Of a stretch of DNA of 64,000 bases, positions 3,686 to 17,881 are shown in pieces (the first letter of the stretch is position 1; each line of letters opens with the position of its first letter). The position numbers were made by a program, and so were the translations under genes. Below the pieces are notes generated by a model. The model was not told the origin of the DNA, searched no databases, and worked only from the letters and a program-made list of their open reading frames with translations. This stretch comes from a candidate division SR1 bacterium (GTDB taxonomy: Bacteria > Patescibacteriota > Gracilibacteria > Absconditabacterales > Absconditicoccaceae). Where the stretch lies: contig JAPLUU010000006.1 of NCBI GenBank assembly GCA_026397515.1, forward strand, positions 1 to 64,000, in the 5' to 3' direction.

Positions 3686-6600
3686 ATGAATCAGAAAGAA
3701 TTGAACCAAAGTCTTAACGCATATTGGAAAGAACATAAAATTTTCCAAAAATCACTCGATCAGAGATCAGAAAAATTTCAATCTATCACCTATGATGGTC
3801 CTCCCTTTGCTTCAGGGACACCTCATTTTGGACATGGACTGGTAGGATCTATGAAAGATACTATCCTCAGATATAAAACTATGAAAGGATATAAAGTAAA
3901 CAGAGATCGATGACGAGATTGTCATGGTTTACCTGTTGAAAAATTTGTAGAAAAATTACTCGGTATTGATGGAAAAAAAGATATTGAAAATAAAATAGGA
4001 GTAGAAAAATTTGTAGAAGAATGTAGAAAATCAGTAAGTAACACCAGTGACGAATGGAGAATATTTGGTGATCTTATCGGAAGACGAGCAGATATGGATC
4101 ATGCATATTACACAATGAACCTAGATTTTATGGAATCCGTAATGCGAGTATTCCAAAATATGTACACACAAAATTTGGTCTATAAATGATTTAACGTGCA
4201 ATGGATGTGTCCAAGCTGTGCGACAACATTATCAAATTCTGAAGTAAACGAAGGATATAAAGACAGACAAGATCCGGCTATTACGATAAAGTTTCCACTC
4301 CATATAGACAATATAAATAACCAAATGAATGTAGATACAAATAAATATGAAACCACAAAAGATTGATTTATTCAAGTGGTAGATTGCATCATCAAACGTG
4401 ATGGAAAGATTTTTATGAATTATAGTGTAAAAGCACAAAAGTATGTCTGCCCAGGAGGAAAAGTAGATAAAGGAGATACGATGGAATGAACAATCAAAAA
4501 AGAAATATTGGAAGAATTAGGTGTTACGGTTACAAAGATAACAAAACTTTGAAGCATCAAAGAAATTTTACGCGGAACATTACGAAATCTTAATATGTTC
4601 GAGATAGAAATCGAAGGTGAACCAAAAATAATGGAACCAGAAAAATTACCACAAATGATTCGAGCAGAAATCATTGAATCAGATAATGCATTATGATTCG
4701 CCGTAAAAATAGAAAATACTATCATCGATGACGACATGGAAATTATGAGTCAATTTTATGACCTCTATCTATATCAAAAAAGGATTTTTGAAAAGACAAG
4801 CCCAGATGCACAATTTAGTGCATTAGCATGGACGACTACTCCATGGACATTACCAAGTAATATGTTTTTGGCTATAGGAAAACATATCCACTATACGACA
4901 GTATATGATATAGGAGCAAAAGAATATTTCGTTATTGCAGAAAATCTTTTGAAACAATATTATAGAAATACTGAAGAATATATTTTGATCAATACTATCC
5001 AATGAGAAGCTATGGCAGGATTAAAATATGAGCCATTATTTCAACATATCAACAAGAGTAAAATTGATAAAAAATATAAAGAACAGTTTTTCAAAATCAT
5101 AGCAGGAGAATTTGTGAGTACCGAAGATGGAACAGGTATCGTGCATATTGCACCAGCGTTCTGAGTAGAAGATTTTAATGCTGTTGCTCAGTTTTTACCA
5201 AGAGAAGATTCTAAGAATCGATTATTTTTACCAGTAAACGACTATGGTGAATTTACTGATGAAGTACCTGAATGGAGGGGAACCAGAGTATATGACGCCA
5301 ACAAAGATATCATTCAAAGACTCAAAGAAGAAGGAAAACTTATTGGACAAAAATCATACGAACATTCCTATCCACACTGCCGAAGATGTGATACGGCTTT
5401 GATTTCCAAAGCATTGACGAGTTGGTTTATCAAAGAACCATCACTCACACCAATCACGGTACCACATGCAGAAGAAATAGGATTTGTACCCGAGACCGTA
5501 AAAAAAAGATTTATCGATGTTATCAAAACTGCGCCAGATTGGAATCTTGCAAGAAATAGATATCGATGAGCTCCACTACCTATCTGGGAAAATACTAAAA
5601 AACCAGAGGATATTATCGTAGCAGGGACGTTAGATGAAATCTATCAATGAACAAGAACATGATCACAAAATATCACTAAAAACATCATTATCAGACATGG
5701 AGAGACCATATACAATGAAACACATACGCACGATAGTTATAGCAAAACAGAGCTCAACAAAAATGGACTCAAACAAGCAAAAGTAGTAAGTAAATATCTT
5801 GCTTCATTAAAAAAAGAAGACCGAATAATTATCATTACGCCATTGGCAAGATCGCTCCAAACCGTGCTTCCCTTTTTGGAAAAGAAATTTCCTGACAGCA
5901 TGTGAGAGATACAGAAAAAATATCAAGATATCCAAAAGATATATCAGGACCTTCGAAACGAGAAGAAAATCCAATGATATATTCAAGACGCTTCGACACA
6001 AAAACTCTTTGAAATCAACGAAAAACTTTATGTCGACTTCAGGACGACTGATCTTATTTTGCCGGAATTTCAAGATAAACAATTATCACCAGGATGAACG
6101 ACCAAACAACCGACAAATAAAAAACTTACTCCCGAATGAGAATCTATAGACGATGTTATCGCAAGATGTAGAGCATACACACTAGAAGTAAACCAAAAAT
6201 TTGCGACAAAAACTATCATAAGTATCACTCATAGAGATTCTGTTGTTTTGATAGAACAAACATTTAAAGATTTTGATTATCTAACAAAAAAACAAGAATA
6301 CAATCCAAACAACGGACAAATTGTTGTTCGTTATCGAGACAATAATAGAAAAATGGAAATGGATCTTCATAAACCATATGTAGACAGCTATCGATTTAAA
6401 AAATGAACGAAAGAATATCGCAGAATTCCAGAAGTAATGGATTGTTGGTTTGAATCAGGATCAATGCCATTTGGACAAGCTGGATATACCGACACCCATA
6501 GTACGAAACCACTCATCTATCCGGCTGATTTCATTATTGAAGGATTAGATCAAACAAGAGGTTGGTTTAGAGGAATGCATGTATGTGGGAACGCAGTCAT

Positions 6601-7804
6601 GAAAAAAAATTCATTTAATAATGTAATCATCAATGGTCTCGTACTTGCGGAAGACGGAAAAAAAATGTCAAAAAAATTAAATAATTATCCAGATCCAGAA
6701 CAATTATTTGGAAAGTATGGAACAGACGCATATAGATTATACCTCCTCTCTTCACCAGGTGTAAGAGCTGAAGCAGTAAGATTCTCAGAAAAATGAGTAG
6801 AACAAGTCTACAAAGATTTCACGGCTTCTATCATGAATGGATATAAATTTTTCGAAACCTATGCAAACGTAGATAAATGGACAACCGATAACACAGTACT
6901 TTACTTTATGAGACATGCCAAAGCAAATGGACAACTAATGGATCATCCCATAGCAGAAGAAGGAATCCAAGCGATGAAAGATACAAAATTTATTGAACAA
7001 ATATTGAGAATAAATCCAGATATCATTTATACGAGTCCATCAGTAAGAACAGTACAGACTACTGAAGAAGTAGTAAAAATTATGAAAGAATATAGAGGCA
7101 AAAAGGTAAAAATAAAGACAGACGAAAAATTACGATCAGGTGAAACGATGGATACCATAGGAGTATATAAAAAATTAATCAAGAAATGAGCAGGACAAAA
7201 TATTCTGATTATTTCCCACGATGTGAACTTCAATGAACTTCGACCAACACTTTACAACACACAAGCATCACTCAATAAACTCGAAGCAGTTAAGCTTCCT
7301 AGCTATAGTATTGATAACGAATTAGATAAACGAATACTTGCAGAGCTTCATAATTTAGGAATTCAAATCGAACAAGAAATGAATAAATACTTCCTTGATA
7401 CCAGTGCAAAACTAGTTCTAGGATTTATCGAAAAATTAAATAATCGATTTATCAGAAGATCTAGAAGAAGATTTCGAGCATCAGGAATGGATCAAGACAA
7501 ACGTTCAGCATTTAATACGTTATTTGAAGTATTACAGAGCTACATGAAAATATGTGCACCATTCGCACCGTTTGTGAGTGAACACATCTATCTTGAATTA
7601 CAAAAATTCACAACAAAAGGAAAAGTTGAAGGCGATTCAATACATCTCGAACACTTTCCACTCTATTCAGAGAAATATATCGACAAACAGCTTTTGGAAG
7701 AAATCAGTGTTGTCAGAAGAATAATTTCACTTGGACTCTTCATTAGATCGAAAAATAAAATGGCAGTCAAACAGCCCCTTTCAAAAATGCAGATAAGGTT
7801 ATAA
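3686..7804 (+). CDS. ileS: Isoleucyl-tRNA synthetase with embedded Nudix and two histidine-phosphatase domains
   Basis: Charges tRNA-Ile in the cytoplasm. The frame is a single 1372-codon ORF with UGA as Gly. Core landmarks: PHFGHG (HIGH motif, residues 46-51), [11 protein letters not shown], the editing-domain [11 protein letters not shown] (about 381), [13 protein letters not shown] (about 919), KMSKK (993-997) and YVRRSRRRF-like FIRRSRRRF. Three non-synthetase domains interrupt it in frame. Residues about 215-372 form a Nudix domain whose box GKVDKGD...KEILEELGV keeps the catalytic EE but has Asp and Lys at two consensus positions. Residues about 664-891 form a histidine phosphatase (RHG 670-672, LARSLQT, ITHRD with His849). 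Residues about 1069-1205 form a second one (RHA 1076-1078, SVRTVQT, SHD with His1178). Each lies at a loop between conserved synthetase blocks. The protein stops soon after VKQPLSK, so the usual C-terminal extension is missing. Inserts also use UGA, so they are not fresh. Confidence 0.95.
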
Positions 7805-10612: not shown

Positions 10613-11920
10613 TTATTCCTGTGGATTTGCTATTCTATAAAACATAATCATCACGTTTTGTCTTTTTTCAAACATGAAAGGAGTATCTATTTTTTTCATA
10701 ATACCATTTTCTTTAAGAGCGTTAAGATGAGCTTCGTACCATTGGCCAGCTTGTCAGTTATAAGCTTCTCATCGAAGCAGTCTCGAAAGCATAGTACCAA
10801 ATTGTGCTCTAGTTAGAATCACGTCAGGAGAAAATGTAGAATTTGCATTTCACTTGCTATCCAATCACATGATACCAAGCTGGCAAGCAATCTTAGCATA
10901 ACGCTGATATTCAGTAGTCTCATCATTCATATCTAGGAAATTACATTTTTTCTTGGGATCGGGATTTTTTCCTAAGACATTAATAGCAAATTGCGAAATC
11001 ATTTTGGCTATATGTTTTCTAAGTACGAGTCACGAAGGATTTGCTTTCTGTATAGGACATTGCGTCGTGATTCCCATGTTATAAGAGTAACTAAATGCCT
11101 GAGTCACTTCTGCAGAATAAGGAGAATTAGTGACTGGACACGCTGCCTGCAAAGCAGGAGTATCTAGAATTTCTGGTTTATCTACCATGATACCACTAGT
11201 GACTAAACCACTAAATGTAGGAATATCAATTATAGATCACGTTCCTCAACCTCATCATCAACCACCTCAACCTCATCATCAACCACCTCAACCTCATCAT
11301 CAACCACCTCAACCACTATTTCATCAATTATTTCATCAATTATTTCAAGTACCAGATTCTACGATAGTAAGTCATGAACCAAAGAGTGATGCGATACCAC
11401 CACGAGAATCAAATATGTGACCAAATGTCTGTCATCCAGCAAACAACATAGTTTGCAGATATGTAGGCAAATAAGAATTTTCAATAAAATTATAATTTAC
11501 TCATGCAATAATATAATATGGCTGTCATGATAAAGTATGTAGGATACTACCATAGATCGCTTGTGTCGTTCCTCCACAATAAAATATTCATCACTGCAGA
11601 GTAAGATTATTGTACGAAGTATTATATGCTTTGAGTAATGTGAGGCTATCTTGATCCAGTGGCCACAATCTCTGTCATCTAGCCGCATTATAATAATATC
11701 ATCTGATCTGCTGTGTACATGTTTTTGTAATTCCATTGAGAATAAGTGTCTCTGAGACAGGTACGGTATCTCTAAAAAATATAGTCCCACCAAATTGATT
11801 CCCATGATAAATAAAGTGTAATGCAGAGGTTGGTAATCCATCAAGAGAAAAATTACTAGCATAACTGGAGCCAAGAAATAATGATAACACAATAACTAGT
11901 AATAAAATTATTTTTCTCAT
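10613..11920 (-). CDS. Secreted SLH-like protein with a polyglycine linker
   Basis: A 435-aa exported protein. The signal peptide is MRKIILLLVIVLSLFLGSSYA. An N-terminal globular part of about 200 residues ends in Gly/Asn repeats, then 24 consecutive Gly at residues 203-226, of which 13 are UGA codons. After the linker, a Cys-containing region with two S-layer-homology-like repeats follows (YSAEVTQAFSYSYNMGIT..., and STFSPDVILTRAQFGTML...). SLH repeats typically hold proteins to the cell-wall polymer. The gene starts 9 bp after the stop of the giant fibre gene, so the two form an operon, and it ends at the bidirectional terminator. It probably anchors or assembles surface material. The function of the N-terminal part is unknown. 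Confidence 0.82.
11246..11314 (-). repeat. 21-bp tandem repeat encoding polyglycine, about 3.3 copies
   Basis: The period is seven codons. Read on the minus strand, each unit is a mixture of GGT and TGA codons only (pattern GGT GGT TGA TGA TGA GGT). The repeat therefore encodes nothing but Gly in code 25, while under the standard code it would be a cluster of stops. On the plus strand it appears as an artefactual Pro-Gln-His repeat ORF. Confidence 0.9.
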
Positions 11921-11929
11921 ACAAGATTT

Positions 11930-14900
11930 TTATTGGACATAAAGATATCATCATATAATCATGGTAAGTGGATTAGTTACCCATACTGGATTGACCGTTT
12001 TCATTTCTATAAAATCTCAAGGGACAACAGGAATATTCATTGCAGTATTTCTAAAGTTTCTTTCAGCGGTAGCCAAGCTAAGCGTCTGTATAAGATAATC
12101 TGTAGTATCGTTTTTACGAACATACATTGACCATGCCTCAGCAGTTCAGGCAGTACCAGCATACGTAGATATACTAGCAGCAGTAATAGTACCTGTAGTC
12201 GTAATATACACTCTTCTCGTGAGAGCAACAGTATTTGGTGCAGCAGGAATTTGTCCAAAATAATTAGCCACACTATCCGCAGGACTTGCGGTAAGTGCCT
12301 GGACATAAATAGTATAGGCTGCTCAAGCTTGATAACGAGTTCATGCAGAATTCTGTAGATTATCTACCGTAATGGTTCATTGGACTGTTTGATTACCAGA
12401 AAGTAACATATAAAGTCATAAATTTCCAGTAATATATCACATCATTCTATGATCTCATCGTCCATAGGCAGAATCTCGATTTGTTATTTTAGTATTAGTA
12501 ATACTAGCAGCTGGATGAATAGCAAATATAGGATCGCTTTCAATGAAGCTATTTGCAATCAGATCCCAGTCTCCTGTCATAGTTACTCATACCTTACTCT
12601 TGTTAGCTATAAACATATTTCCCGTAATCATATTCAGCCCATTAAAATTACCAGCCTTACGAACGACATAATAATATCAGTTCAATGGGCTACTAGGCAA
12701 AGCACCAGCAGAATAATCCCAGGTTCACTGATATGCCATACCAGAGACAGCAAAGAGTTTACTATCTACTTCTGTCTTTGTATAGTAACTTGTTTTCTGT
12801 GTGGTTCGCGTTGGATCACTTTCTGCAGTCAAGAATCATCTTGCATTTATTTGTGTAGTAGTAGAATAGTTGGCTTTTTCACTAGTTCGGATAGGATCAC
12901 TTTCTCCTGTATAATATCATGCACTTCGAACTCATCCAGCTCTAGTTTGGACCGCGAAGCTAGAACCATTGAGACCCATTCTCCACGATCCATTGGTAGT
13001 AGGATCTCAGAGATAATATCGATTGGTCGATGGAATTTCAGCATCTCCAGCAACATCTAGAGCAGATGTGGGAGGATTGTTATTTCATACAGTCAACCAT
13101 CCATTACTACTAAGTCACATTTTATAAGCCATAGCGCCTCATGCAAGTGAATATCCAAATTGCAACATAGAATTTGGTGGATTTCAGGTAATGGGAAGAT
13201 TTTCCATTATCCACTGAGAGGTATTGGTAGCAGAAGATCATGCATTCCACACATTACCATTGAGCATCAGTCTTGGAGACATTTGGACAGGAACCGCTAA
13301 AGTGGCTGCCTGTGCATTAGTATTGACTAGACCATCTGTGGAAACTGCTGCTATATTTGATCTCGTAGAAGTAATGGTTGATGAACCCACGATCGATGTA
13401 GCAGATACTGCAGCCATAGTAGTAGCACCAACAACAGTGAGAGTAGATCAAATACTAAGTGTTCATCAGATAATAGCTGATGGCCTTATGTTCACATAGT
13501 TAGTGAGTGTAGTCAATCATGCAGTAGTAGTGTTGTAATATGGTAATGGAGTATTACTAGGTGTAAGTGAAGCTCACCAAGCAGCATAAGCACCAGTACC
13601 AGAAACAATACGTACTATCTTAGTGGTATGTGCTGTAGTTAAATTCTGTGTCACCCAAAATCTCTTCCATTGAGTAGTGAGATTCACCACTTTATCAGAT
13701 CATACTTGAGCATTACTTTCTACTCTTATAATAACAGATCATGTAACTGATTGCATCTTTAATCGTACTGCAAATGTCCGATTTCCTACCACAGCATTAG
13801 TAACAGATTGTGCAATATTACTCGTAGCTAGGGTACCAGCTGGGATATTTTCAGCGGTTGCTGTACCCATAGGATCTTGAGCAGAGTTTGCTGTTACTGC
13901 TCATATATTTGTTTTGACCCAAGATGCATTATCAAAGACTTCTGACTGAAGAAGGTAGTTTTGATGCTGTCCAACAGAGAAGAATGGATTTTGAAAGTTA
14001 CCTTCAAGCATGGATGTTCATCCATCTCCAGCACCGACAGACAATCATAATCATAATTGGAAAGCCGTATCTCCATTTATTCTATTATTGACCGTATCTA
14101 TACTCAATACATTTGTTGTTTTATCTGCCTCATTAAACTGGATAGCGGTAGCGCTATCTGTGACAGGATAAAAAGCACCACTATCTGTTAACCTCACATT
14201 ACTATTATCTTGGATAATCTTACCATTAGTTCCATGAAATCTTACTAACGCATTATCGGCTGATGAATCAGGACCCGTAATAAACCCAGAGATAGCAGCA
14301 GCTGTTAAATAACCAGCAGAAGTATGGTCTCCTCGTCCATAAGCAGCATCCCAATTTATTATTTTACCTGTAGTAACATTGGCCGCAGAGCTAGCTAAAT
14401 AAATAGGATCAGACTCAGTATATCAGGTAAGATAATTTTGATTATCTATTTGTGACCTCGTATAATAATTGTGTGCTGCCGCACTCCAGACAGGATCAGT
14501 CTCAGTATAGGAGGTAATATATCCCATATCTCTATGATCTCCTCGCGAATATGCAGCATCCCAATGGGAAACATCTCCAGAAGTAATACCAGCTGCTTCA
14601 CTGATGGCAAAGAGTGGATCAGTTTCTGTCTTGAGATAACCTGCATCAGCATGATTACCTCGACCATAGGCAGCATTCCAATGTCATATAGTCAATGTGC
14701 TTATAGCATGAGCAGGGCTTGCCAAAAATATTGGATCTGTCTCTGGTTGGTCCATTTCTATGAGATTCCAATCACCGGTTTCTGTTGCGCCAGAGACTAC
14801 TCTTTTCGCTATTATTTGATCGGGAGCTTCCATATGTAATCCACTAAATTCTACTCCAGTCTCATTGGTAATGATATACATATCTCCTGTATTTACATCA

Positions 14901-17644
14901 GAAGGCAATACTCAGGTAGAGTAATCCCATCAGCCTTTATAGGTCATAGCACCAACGACACTAGCTATTTTTTCGTTCACCTGTGTGGCAGTATAATAAC
15001 TAGACGCAAGAGTAGTCCAGATAGGGTCGGTTTCACCAGTTAAATATCCAATGAGTGAAACTGCAGTAATATATGGGTTACCAGACCCATCATAGATGGT
15101 ATGACCAGAAGTTACGTTAATATTTCCACTAACCGTCAATGCTTGTGTAGGGGAAGATGTACCGATACCAACACGTCAGTTATTTTTGATAATCATTCTT
15201 TCCAATGGTTCTGTTGTACCATCAAGAGAAGTACTAAATGATATCTTTCCCGGCATATCCAAGACATCGGGCGCCCCATCCACACCAAAAGTAATCCCAG
15301 CGGCCTGTCTAAATGTTCCACCATCATATCAAAATCCATATATTCCTCATAAAATATCCGTATTACTCACAGACAATTTATCACTCACTGTTCATTTAGA
15401 TTTAGCGAATACAATACTCATTTTTTCATCAGCGACTGGATCTGCTAGATAGTGAACCGTCGTATATTGATCATTATCATTAGATACTACCTCCATTTTA
15501 GTATCCGCTATGCCAGGAAGTTTTCCCATCTCATACTTTGTAGTCAATTCAGGGGGTAACAATCAGACTCTACTATTACTATCTATCGTAAACATTGGAC
15601 TTACATCACCAGCACCAGCGTAGAGAGAAAACCTATTGACTCCAAGATTGGTCATCAGTTTTGCTGTTGGAGCATTACCTGCAAGAGAAGATAACGATAG
15701 TTTAATCCAGTATAAATTATGTCCATTAATAGTTCTTTTTTCCCACGTAGGTTTCATAGATTCAATAGTCCAACCAATGTTTCCATCTTGTTTAAATTTA
15801 TCTGTCTTGTCTGTCAATCAAACAGCGTCTCACCATCCTCATCAAGTTTTGGAATATTTTACTTGTAAAGTTCCAGGTGTTCAGGCAGGAGTCTCTATAT
15901 CTATATAAATTGATCTTCGAGGATATTCCTTACCACATAAAAAAGCATCTCCTGGTCAATTAACGAGTACAAAAGGATCTCAAGCAGAAGTATAAGCATT
16001 AGCAGTTTCATCATAATAAGTATCACCATCATATCTTGCTGCATAATCAAAATATTGTGGATAGAGAGTGAAAGCATCTAATGGCGTAGTACTTCATAAA
16101 AGTGTAGGATTATTAATACCGACTCTACCTGCGGCAGAGATAGTTATAACATCCCTTTTGGAGTTTCCATTTGCAAAATATAATTTGTCTCCATCTTCAC
16201 CACTAGCAGTATACATCGCCCATTTATAATCCTCACTAGTAGATCATCCTCAAATTTGAAATCATTTCTCTACAGTATCGGGCCCATCAATAGTAATATA
16301 ATTAGAATAGAAATCATCGGTATTGGCAGACCGCACATACAGAGGATATGTTTCATTAACTCCTCATATGTTGAGATATTTATTGATAAAAACATTACCC
16401 GTATTGGTATTGATAATATCAGATCAATGTTTGGTCCATGAAACATTAGCAGTAGTAATATATCCAGATGGATTAGTAATCGGATAATAATCGCCACTAT
16501 GAGCAAGGAATTCAGGATCCGTTTCCGTATATCAGGTCAAAAAATTAAATGCATTAATCTGAGATTTCGTATAGTATCTATCATCATGCGTATGGTTTGC
16601 AAAGTCCAAACCACTCAGCAAACTATCTACTTGAAACGTAGTATAATAATTTGATTTATCGCTAAGCCAAGTAGGATCAGTTTCTACAAAATTAGTCAAA
16701 TATCACTTTGCATCTATTTCACCTGTAGTATAATAATTATTTTTTTCTGCATTCCACATCGGATCTGTTTCGCTATAATTGGTTAAATACCCTTTCGCAT
16801 TTATCTCGTTAATCGTGTAGTAGTTACTTTTTTCCGTGTTTCGGATCGGATCTGTTTCTGTCTTGAGATACCCAGCAAGAGAATGATCACCTCGCGAATA
16901 TGACGTATCCCAATGAGAAAGCTGAGTAGAACTAATACCTGCAGCGACACTCGCAGCAAAGACCGGATCTACTTCTGGATTATTTACATTTCTGATCACA
17001 TCTCGATCATTCATTGATGTCACACCAGAAAGATTCCTGTTAGCGATAATCATATCTCAAGCATACAAGACAAGTCAATTGAAATCTCACGAGACAGAGA
17101 TCTTATAGAAATCTCCAAGAATAATATCCATGGGCAAGTCTCCCGTAGAATATTCCCAGACTCCTTTGTAAGTCAGACCTCAAGCAAAACCAGCCAGTAG
17201 ATTATCCACGTCCGTTTTAGTATAATAAGCTAATTTATCTATATTCCAAACTGGATCAGTCTCTCCTGTTAGATATCACATAGCTCTATGATCACCTCGC
17301 AAATATGCAGTATTTCGATTATAAATTTGATTACTCGTAATGCCTGCGGCGACACTTGCAGAAAATATTGGATCACTTTCAGACGTGATGAAGGAGTGGC
17401 CTAAACCATTTTTAAGTGGCGCATAGACAACTACATTTCCTCCAGAGTTAATATCCATAATTGGAGTTCCTGTATCATTTCCATCGCTAGTAACGAGGAT
17501 CCTTTGGATCACTTGCAAAGCACTAGAGATACTATCTGGGATCGTAATACTAGCATTGGTAAAAAATCCAACAAGGAAAAAAGAGGGAACAAGTACTAAT
17601 AACAGATATTTTAATGAGGAGATTCTGTTCTTTTTTGATAACAT
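11930..17644 (-). CDS. Giant fibre-like repeat surface protein
   Basis: A 1904-aa protein in one frame with UGA as Gly. It starts with a basic N-terminus and one hydrophobic segment (LLLVLVPSFFLVGFF), a signal anchor or signal peptide. The body carries at least fifteen copies of an ETDPxW/F motif, usually as GYLT..TETDP.W...K.NYYT..Q.D, and several copies of HWDAAYSRGDH..AGYL. These are hallmarks of phage-tail-fibre-like adhesins also found in bacterial surface proteins. The last 120 residues (ALTASPADS..., YAGTAGTAEAWSMYVRKND, GDFIEMKTVNP) resemble a phage-type receptor-binding head. No S74 endosialidase chaperone motif was seen. It is probably trimeric and involved in attachment to a host or surface (inference). 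It is cotranscribed with the SLH-like gene. Confidence 0.85.
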
Positions 17645-17881
17645 AACACAGAGACAATGAATAAAGTCGTTCTCTATAAGTATACTCAGTCATACCTTAT
17701 ATATCAAAAAGGGGCAAAAAAGATGAATATCAAGCCAACCAAAAAAATATAAAACAATTAAAATAGCAGTCAAAGAAATAAATTATGATATAATATAGAA
17801 TAGAATTTACAATGACCTTGCCTATATTCCAAAAAACAAGAATTAACTATTTTTCAGTCCTTCAATATTTTTCAAATAAAA
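17645..17881. other. Intergenic region upstream of the fibre gene
   Basis: AT-rich sequence with no convincing gene. It should hold the promoter of the minus-strand fibre operon. A TATAAT-like sequence (gatataatat) lies near 17789 on the plus strand. A 24-codon frame from about 17811 is not supported by any feature. Confidence 0.3.

Follow-up and report, generated by a model that had tools for sequence, protein, structure and literature searches.

SLH surface proteins usually carry three SLH repeats, which bind a polymer of the cell wall. The Absconditabacteria and Gracilibacteria use genetic code 25, in which UGA specifies glycine. According to the accessible text of PMC4032931, this reading is backed by proteomics in a BD1-5 bacterium, and the accessible text of PMC8629427 gives the glycine-acceptor rule for tRNA-Gly(UCA) and reports CGA/CGG as tryptophan codons in Absconditabacteria. 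For tandem repeats in surface proteins of these bacteria, the closest described case is a hypervariable, predicted extracellular protein of a Gracilibacterium with a repeated PTD tripeptide (accessible text of PMC6851277). The window, which is the whole analysed stretch of 64,000 nucleotides, encodes on its minus strand a predicted SLH-type surface protein, in which a flexible glycine spacer very probably separates a secreted N-terminal domain from an SLH-like module, with UGA being frequent in the spacer as an ordinary glycine codon. The features of the locus are as follows.

11930-17773, minus strand: large repetitive ORF of up to 1947 aa upstream of the SLH-type gene, probable neighbour at the same locus
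10613-11920, minus strand: CDS of 435 aa for the predicted SLH-type surface protein, with an open frame when UGA is read as Gly (code 25)
11858-11920, minus strand: hydrophobic N-terminus, probably a signal peptide, roughly residues 1-21 (translation read by eye)
11375-11836, minus strand: N-terminal domain, about residues 29-182, which several relatives match independently of the SLH-like module
11315-11347, minus strand: G-NN-GG-NN-GG-N-S segment, residues 192-202, preceding the Gly run (codon reading)
11243-11314, minus strand: 24-Gly tract, residues 203-226, with 13 UGA, 10 GGT and 1 GGA, made of a 21-bp tandem repeat
10631-11149, minus strand: C-terminal SLH-like module, residues 258-430, with many family matches to about query residues 258-430
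10799-10918, minus strand: best single SLH repeat, residues 335-374 (Pfam PF00395, 20.2 bits)

From the ATG at 11920 to the stop at 10613, the frame of the SLH-type gene is unbroken under code 25 and contains 32 in-frame TGA codons. An earlier note on this DNA had described 24 successive glycine codons with the composition listed above and derived them from a 21-bp repeat, and codon reading and Tandem Repeats Finder agree on this description. The repeat covers 11244-11314 with 3.4 copies and 100% matches, which far exceeds a chance origin, and its unit consists of seven codons, four TGA and three GGT. The perfectly matching in-frame unit also bears out the tandem expansion proposed in the note, and an older glycine run would have grown through in-frame duplication of this unit. 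With the tandem copies collapsed, ten codons with five TGA are left. Since one seven-codon unit was copied, the high UGA count of the tract is not independent evidence. The preceding G/N repeats with UGA are present as claimed, with five TGA codons at residues 192, 195, 196, 199 and 200 and a 12-bp tandem repeat at 11317-11347. The span of 11243-11345 given in the note for the polyglycine tract is real but mixes the glycine run (11243-11314) with most of the G/N segment. A plus-strand ORF at 11130-11474 with PQPHHQ repeats was rejected as merely the antisense reading of the repeat.

That the repeat arose in assembly, or that the ORF is no gene, is almost inconceivable. The source assembly is a 1.21-Mb draft genome in 23 contigs, which gives this possibility some room, but the array comprises only about 71 bp and is thus shorter than common short reads. 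Furthermore, the nearest relative has an equal architecture and frame (L005/L076), and the SLH-like part downstream of the glycine tract, on which the note had made its reading of the tract depend, is intact and in frame in the assembly.

The protein resembles SLH (PF00395) surface proteins in its SLH-like C-terminal module, its hydrophobic N-terminus and the separate domain before the linker. It differs from them in its weak score, which at 20.2 bits lies just below the Pfam cut-off of 20.8 bits, and in that Pfam recognises a single repeat; the module has a length of about 170 residues and thus room for three SLH repeats. Of four relatives scanned with the same profile, L005 (25.2 bits) and L069 (22.8 bits) score over the cut-off and L074 (20.0 bits) under it, while L072 is without a match at E 0.01. 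When the PDB was searched with a profile built from six SLH-like modules, three S-layer protein Sap sequences were retrieved, the best at E 6e-4, and no other protein up to E 1. An NCBIfam scan of the SLH-type protein of the window gave no match. The N-terminal domain is matched separately in relatives, for example over query residues 29-180 and 31-182. The glycine run lies between the two domains, and this order is shared with relatives. The tract looks like a linker, as the note had it. The structure model of the protein is poor (mean pLDDT 39.9 with a six-row alignment), and the flexibility of the linker and the domain boundaries therefore rest on sequence; the rough pattern of the model suggests a beta-rich part with strands before the linker and helices after it. 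The protein is predicted to be exported, and the SLH-like module probably holds it to the wall of the Absconditabacteria (SR1) cell.

The large ORF at 11930-17773 contains repeated ETDP..YYT..I..KGYL motifs, and no match was found for it in a Pfam scan. In L076, the SLH gene has immediately upstream of it a homologue of the C-terminal 160 or so residues of this ORF (170 columns at 40% identity), and the pair of large ORF and SLH gene therefore looks conserved.

The reading of UGA as glycine, on which the earlier note was built, holds for this genome. When the isoleucyl-tRNA synthetase (IleRS) of the window was translated with TGA as X and aligned to the solved IleRS 9wqs_A, the aligned UGA columns, as judged by eye, contained Gly in seven of eight cases, Leu in one and Trp in none; 10 of the 18 UGA codons of the gene lie outside the aligned stretches. 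Among all 39 tRNA matches of the genome, ARAGORN found one with the anticodon UCA (G000:C5:15357-15430), labelled SeC by the program. Its acceptor stem with G1:C72, C2:G71 and G3:C70 and the discriminator U73 fits the rule given in the accessible text of PMC8629427. The UGA codons of the tract would be decoded by this single tRNA-Gly(UCA). UGA at conserved glycine positions and a single tRNA-Gly(UCA) are the features that the genome shares with code 25, and there is no difference from this code in the glycine tract. A difference lies in CGA, which additionally aligns to tryptophan in the window genome. In the IleRS gene (3686-7804, plus strand), CGA aligns to Trp at seven of ten aligned CGA positions (77, 134, 154, 566, 627, 1216 and 1254), as judged by eye against the solved IleRS; the remaining columns contain Phe, Thr and Lys, and none contains Arg. 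This pattern fits the CGA/CGG reassignment in the accessible text of PMC8629427, and table 25 alone therefore misreads the window genome. In the SLH-type protein, the CGA codon at residue 383 would be read as Trp. The IleRS itself, with 1372 aa, contains two kinds of inserted domain between its synthetase parts, a NUDIX domain at residues 252-295 and His_Phos_1 in two stretches, the best at 667-733; such insertions appear unusual.

Glycine spacers are common in the family. A search with the SLH-type protein gave matches in 38 of 59 genomes, the own genome with its 19 matches included. The nearest relative, from a MAG whose label reads candidate division SR1 bacterium (locus G008/L076, L005), is 68% identical over residues 2-433, and at the equivalent position its linker has 14 Gly, encoded by nine UGA, two GGC, two GGT and one GGG. 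Twenty distinct Gly runs of at least seven residues were obtained from loci that were mostly gathered through this search, and a 12-codon pattern of GGA, GGT and TGA, with TGT permitted, matches in 14 of the 59 genomes, again with the own one included. Counted as Gly arrays, without an SLH check of each protein, further arrays have 30 and 20 Gly in G014, 25 Gly in G020 and 17 Gly in G022, the latter two with five-codon units, and the longest tract seen (L144, G011:C10:17300-21500) has 64 Gly, 40 of them encoded by UGA, and derives mostly from an eight-codon unit. G040, a genome of the same class, has arrays of 39 and 15 Gly that are written with GGN codons only, and UGA occurs at none of the 35 and 74 other glycine positions of the respective ORFs. 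These (GGA/GGT)n arrays resemble the window tract as in-frame tandem Gly arrays but are without UGA, which encodes 13 of 24 residues in the window. As such arrays recur in relatives and those of G040 lack UGA, tandem growth of Gly runs is independent of the recoded UGA. The recurrent arrays of this kind and the purely GGN-encoded ones of G040 do not support the suggestion of the note that a linker evolved in an unusual manner here, through tandem expansion with recoded UGA. Among the hits of a GGN search in 117 genomes of the class, inspected by eye, are runs of GGT alone and one of G alone (G102), which may be artefacts. In a literature search, no paper on polyglycine written with UGA was found, which is no proof of absence. 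The window tract is a typical spacer of this family with ordinary codon use.

The perfect 21-bp repeat, the recurrence of arrays in the family and the varying linker length between relatives (24 versus 14 Gly) could also point to a contingency element, in which slippage alters the linker length between cells and thereby tunes surface display. In the accessible text of PMC6851277, the Gracilibacteria repeat protein differs in nucleotide sequence between cells, but variation in its repeat number could not be determined there, and an in-frame 21-bp unit is unable to switch the gene off. Such a role is therefore rather unlikely for the window tract. The Gracilibacterium protein has in common with the window protein that it contains a tandem repeat, is predicted to be extracellular and comes from a related bacterium. 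It differs in its peptide, which is PTD, and according to the accessible text its repeat is without TGA, whereas the window tract encodes Gly with UGA.

The share of UGA in the tract can be compared with that in other glycine codons. The window has 42 ORFs with a length of 150 aa or more, and UGA accounts for 360 of their 1246 Gly codons (29%); in the SLH-type gene it accounts for 13 of 24 in the tract versus 19 of 42 outside Gly runs. The mean UGA share in 20 tracts is 0.446, and the remainder of the same ORFs has 0.408 (p=0.35, Wilcoxon). When the set was enlarged to 35 tracts, one of them a G040 tract without UGA, the shares are 0.452 and 0.387 (p=0.077), and a weak, small excess of UGA in tracts is observed in this set. 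In genomes not used before, of which 10 of 13 searched had matches, the shares are 0.526 in the tract and 0.540 in the rest of the ORF (p=0.80; n=32 tracts with enough other Gly, out of 34 among the matches listed). As the paired shares are alike in two sets, tracts use UGA about as often as other glycine positions do. The stress that the earlier note laid on UGA use as something special is therefore not borne out, apart from the weak excess. These data also bear on the idea that UGA is favoured in polyglycine tracts, for example through its lower G+C content or through avoidance of (GGN)n runs that form G-quadruplexes. That UGA makes up 54% of the tract but 29% of the window's Gly codons speaks for a preference of this kind, as does the slight excess in the 35-tract set, but the paired comparisons within the same ORFs are without difference (p=0.35, p=0.80) and the window tract consists of one copied seven-codon unit, so that it appears quite improbable. 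UGA is very probably frequent in the tract for the reason that this SR1 bacterium uses it as a regular codon for glycine.

Within the tracts, long runs of consecutive UGA codons are depleted. In the 35-tract set, no run of at least four UGA was observed, compared with 13.9 expected from shuffling codons within tracts, the longest run being three; none of 2000 shuffles gave a number as low. With the tandem copies removed, the comparison is 0 versus 5.8. A second sample from genomes not used before comprised at least 34 tracts at no fewer than 32 loci (for example L232-L263), among the matches listed, and had two such runs versus 13.0 expected with the raw tracts and two versus 10.0 with collapsed tracts, with shorter runs being near expectation (59 versus 58.2 for at least two UGA, 26 versus 27.9 for at least three). 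As a control, eight poly-Asp tracts of the family were analysed, in which the identical DNA trinucleotide repeat is read in another frame as GAT. Here, no GAT run of at least four was found, with 5.0 expected raw and 2.4 collapsed. GGT and GGA runs in the tracts were too rare for the run test. A limit of three consecutive codons that is specific to UGA was rejected, since poly-Asp tracts show an equal limit for GAT. The depletion is likely to arise because pure trinucleotide repeats with at least four units are avoided or lost in any frame. It is highly improbable that runs of at least four UGA are selected against for the reason that one tRNA-Gly(UCA) cannot sustain them, with UGA being interleaved with GGN for this purpose; the poly-Asp control is small with its eight tracts, which leaves room for a UGA-specific part of the limit. 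The limit is not absolute either, as in-frame runs of at least four UGA exist outside the tract sets, with one example in the genome that contains the window.

Two observations concern such runs outside the tracts. In L162 of the own genome (G000:C6:4623-4634, minus strand), four consecutive UGA codons encode GGGG within LGGGGHKLAAGF, presumably a DHH-family motif, and L161 is similar. At a contig end, L264 (G027:C44:11400-12270) contains an in-frame series of nine TGA without interruption, and the G027 assembly may have broken at this point on a longer pure repeat.

The earlier note had further proposed that the tract acts as a natural barrier to gene transfer into hosts with the standard code. 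In such a host, translation of the SLH-type gene would stop at its first in-frame UGA, which is codon 74 and lies 129 codons ahead of the Gly run, and in-frame UGA is present in 36 of the 42 window ORFs of at least 150 aa. The tract therefore adds nothing to the barrier already posed by the code of the whole genome. According to the accessible text of PMC10746230, there are predicted phages of such hosts in which the alternative code is not used, so that the barrier would be incomplete in the other direction, too.

The 24-Gly tract is thus real but ordinary. A reassigned stop codon is used here at its ordinary frequency within long homopolymer runs, three in a row included, and such ordinary use is the expected look of a fully established sense codon. 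Gene finders working with the standard code would break the SLH-type gene and most of its neighbours. Otherwise, the window tract is one of many glycine spacers in proteins of the SR1 lineage.
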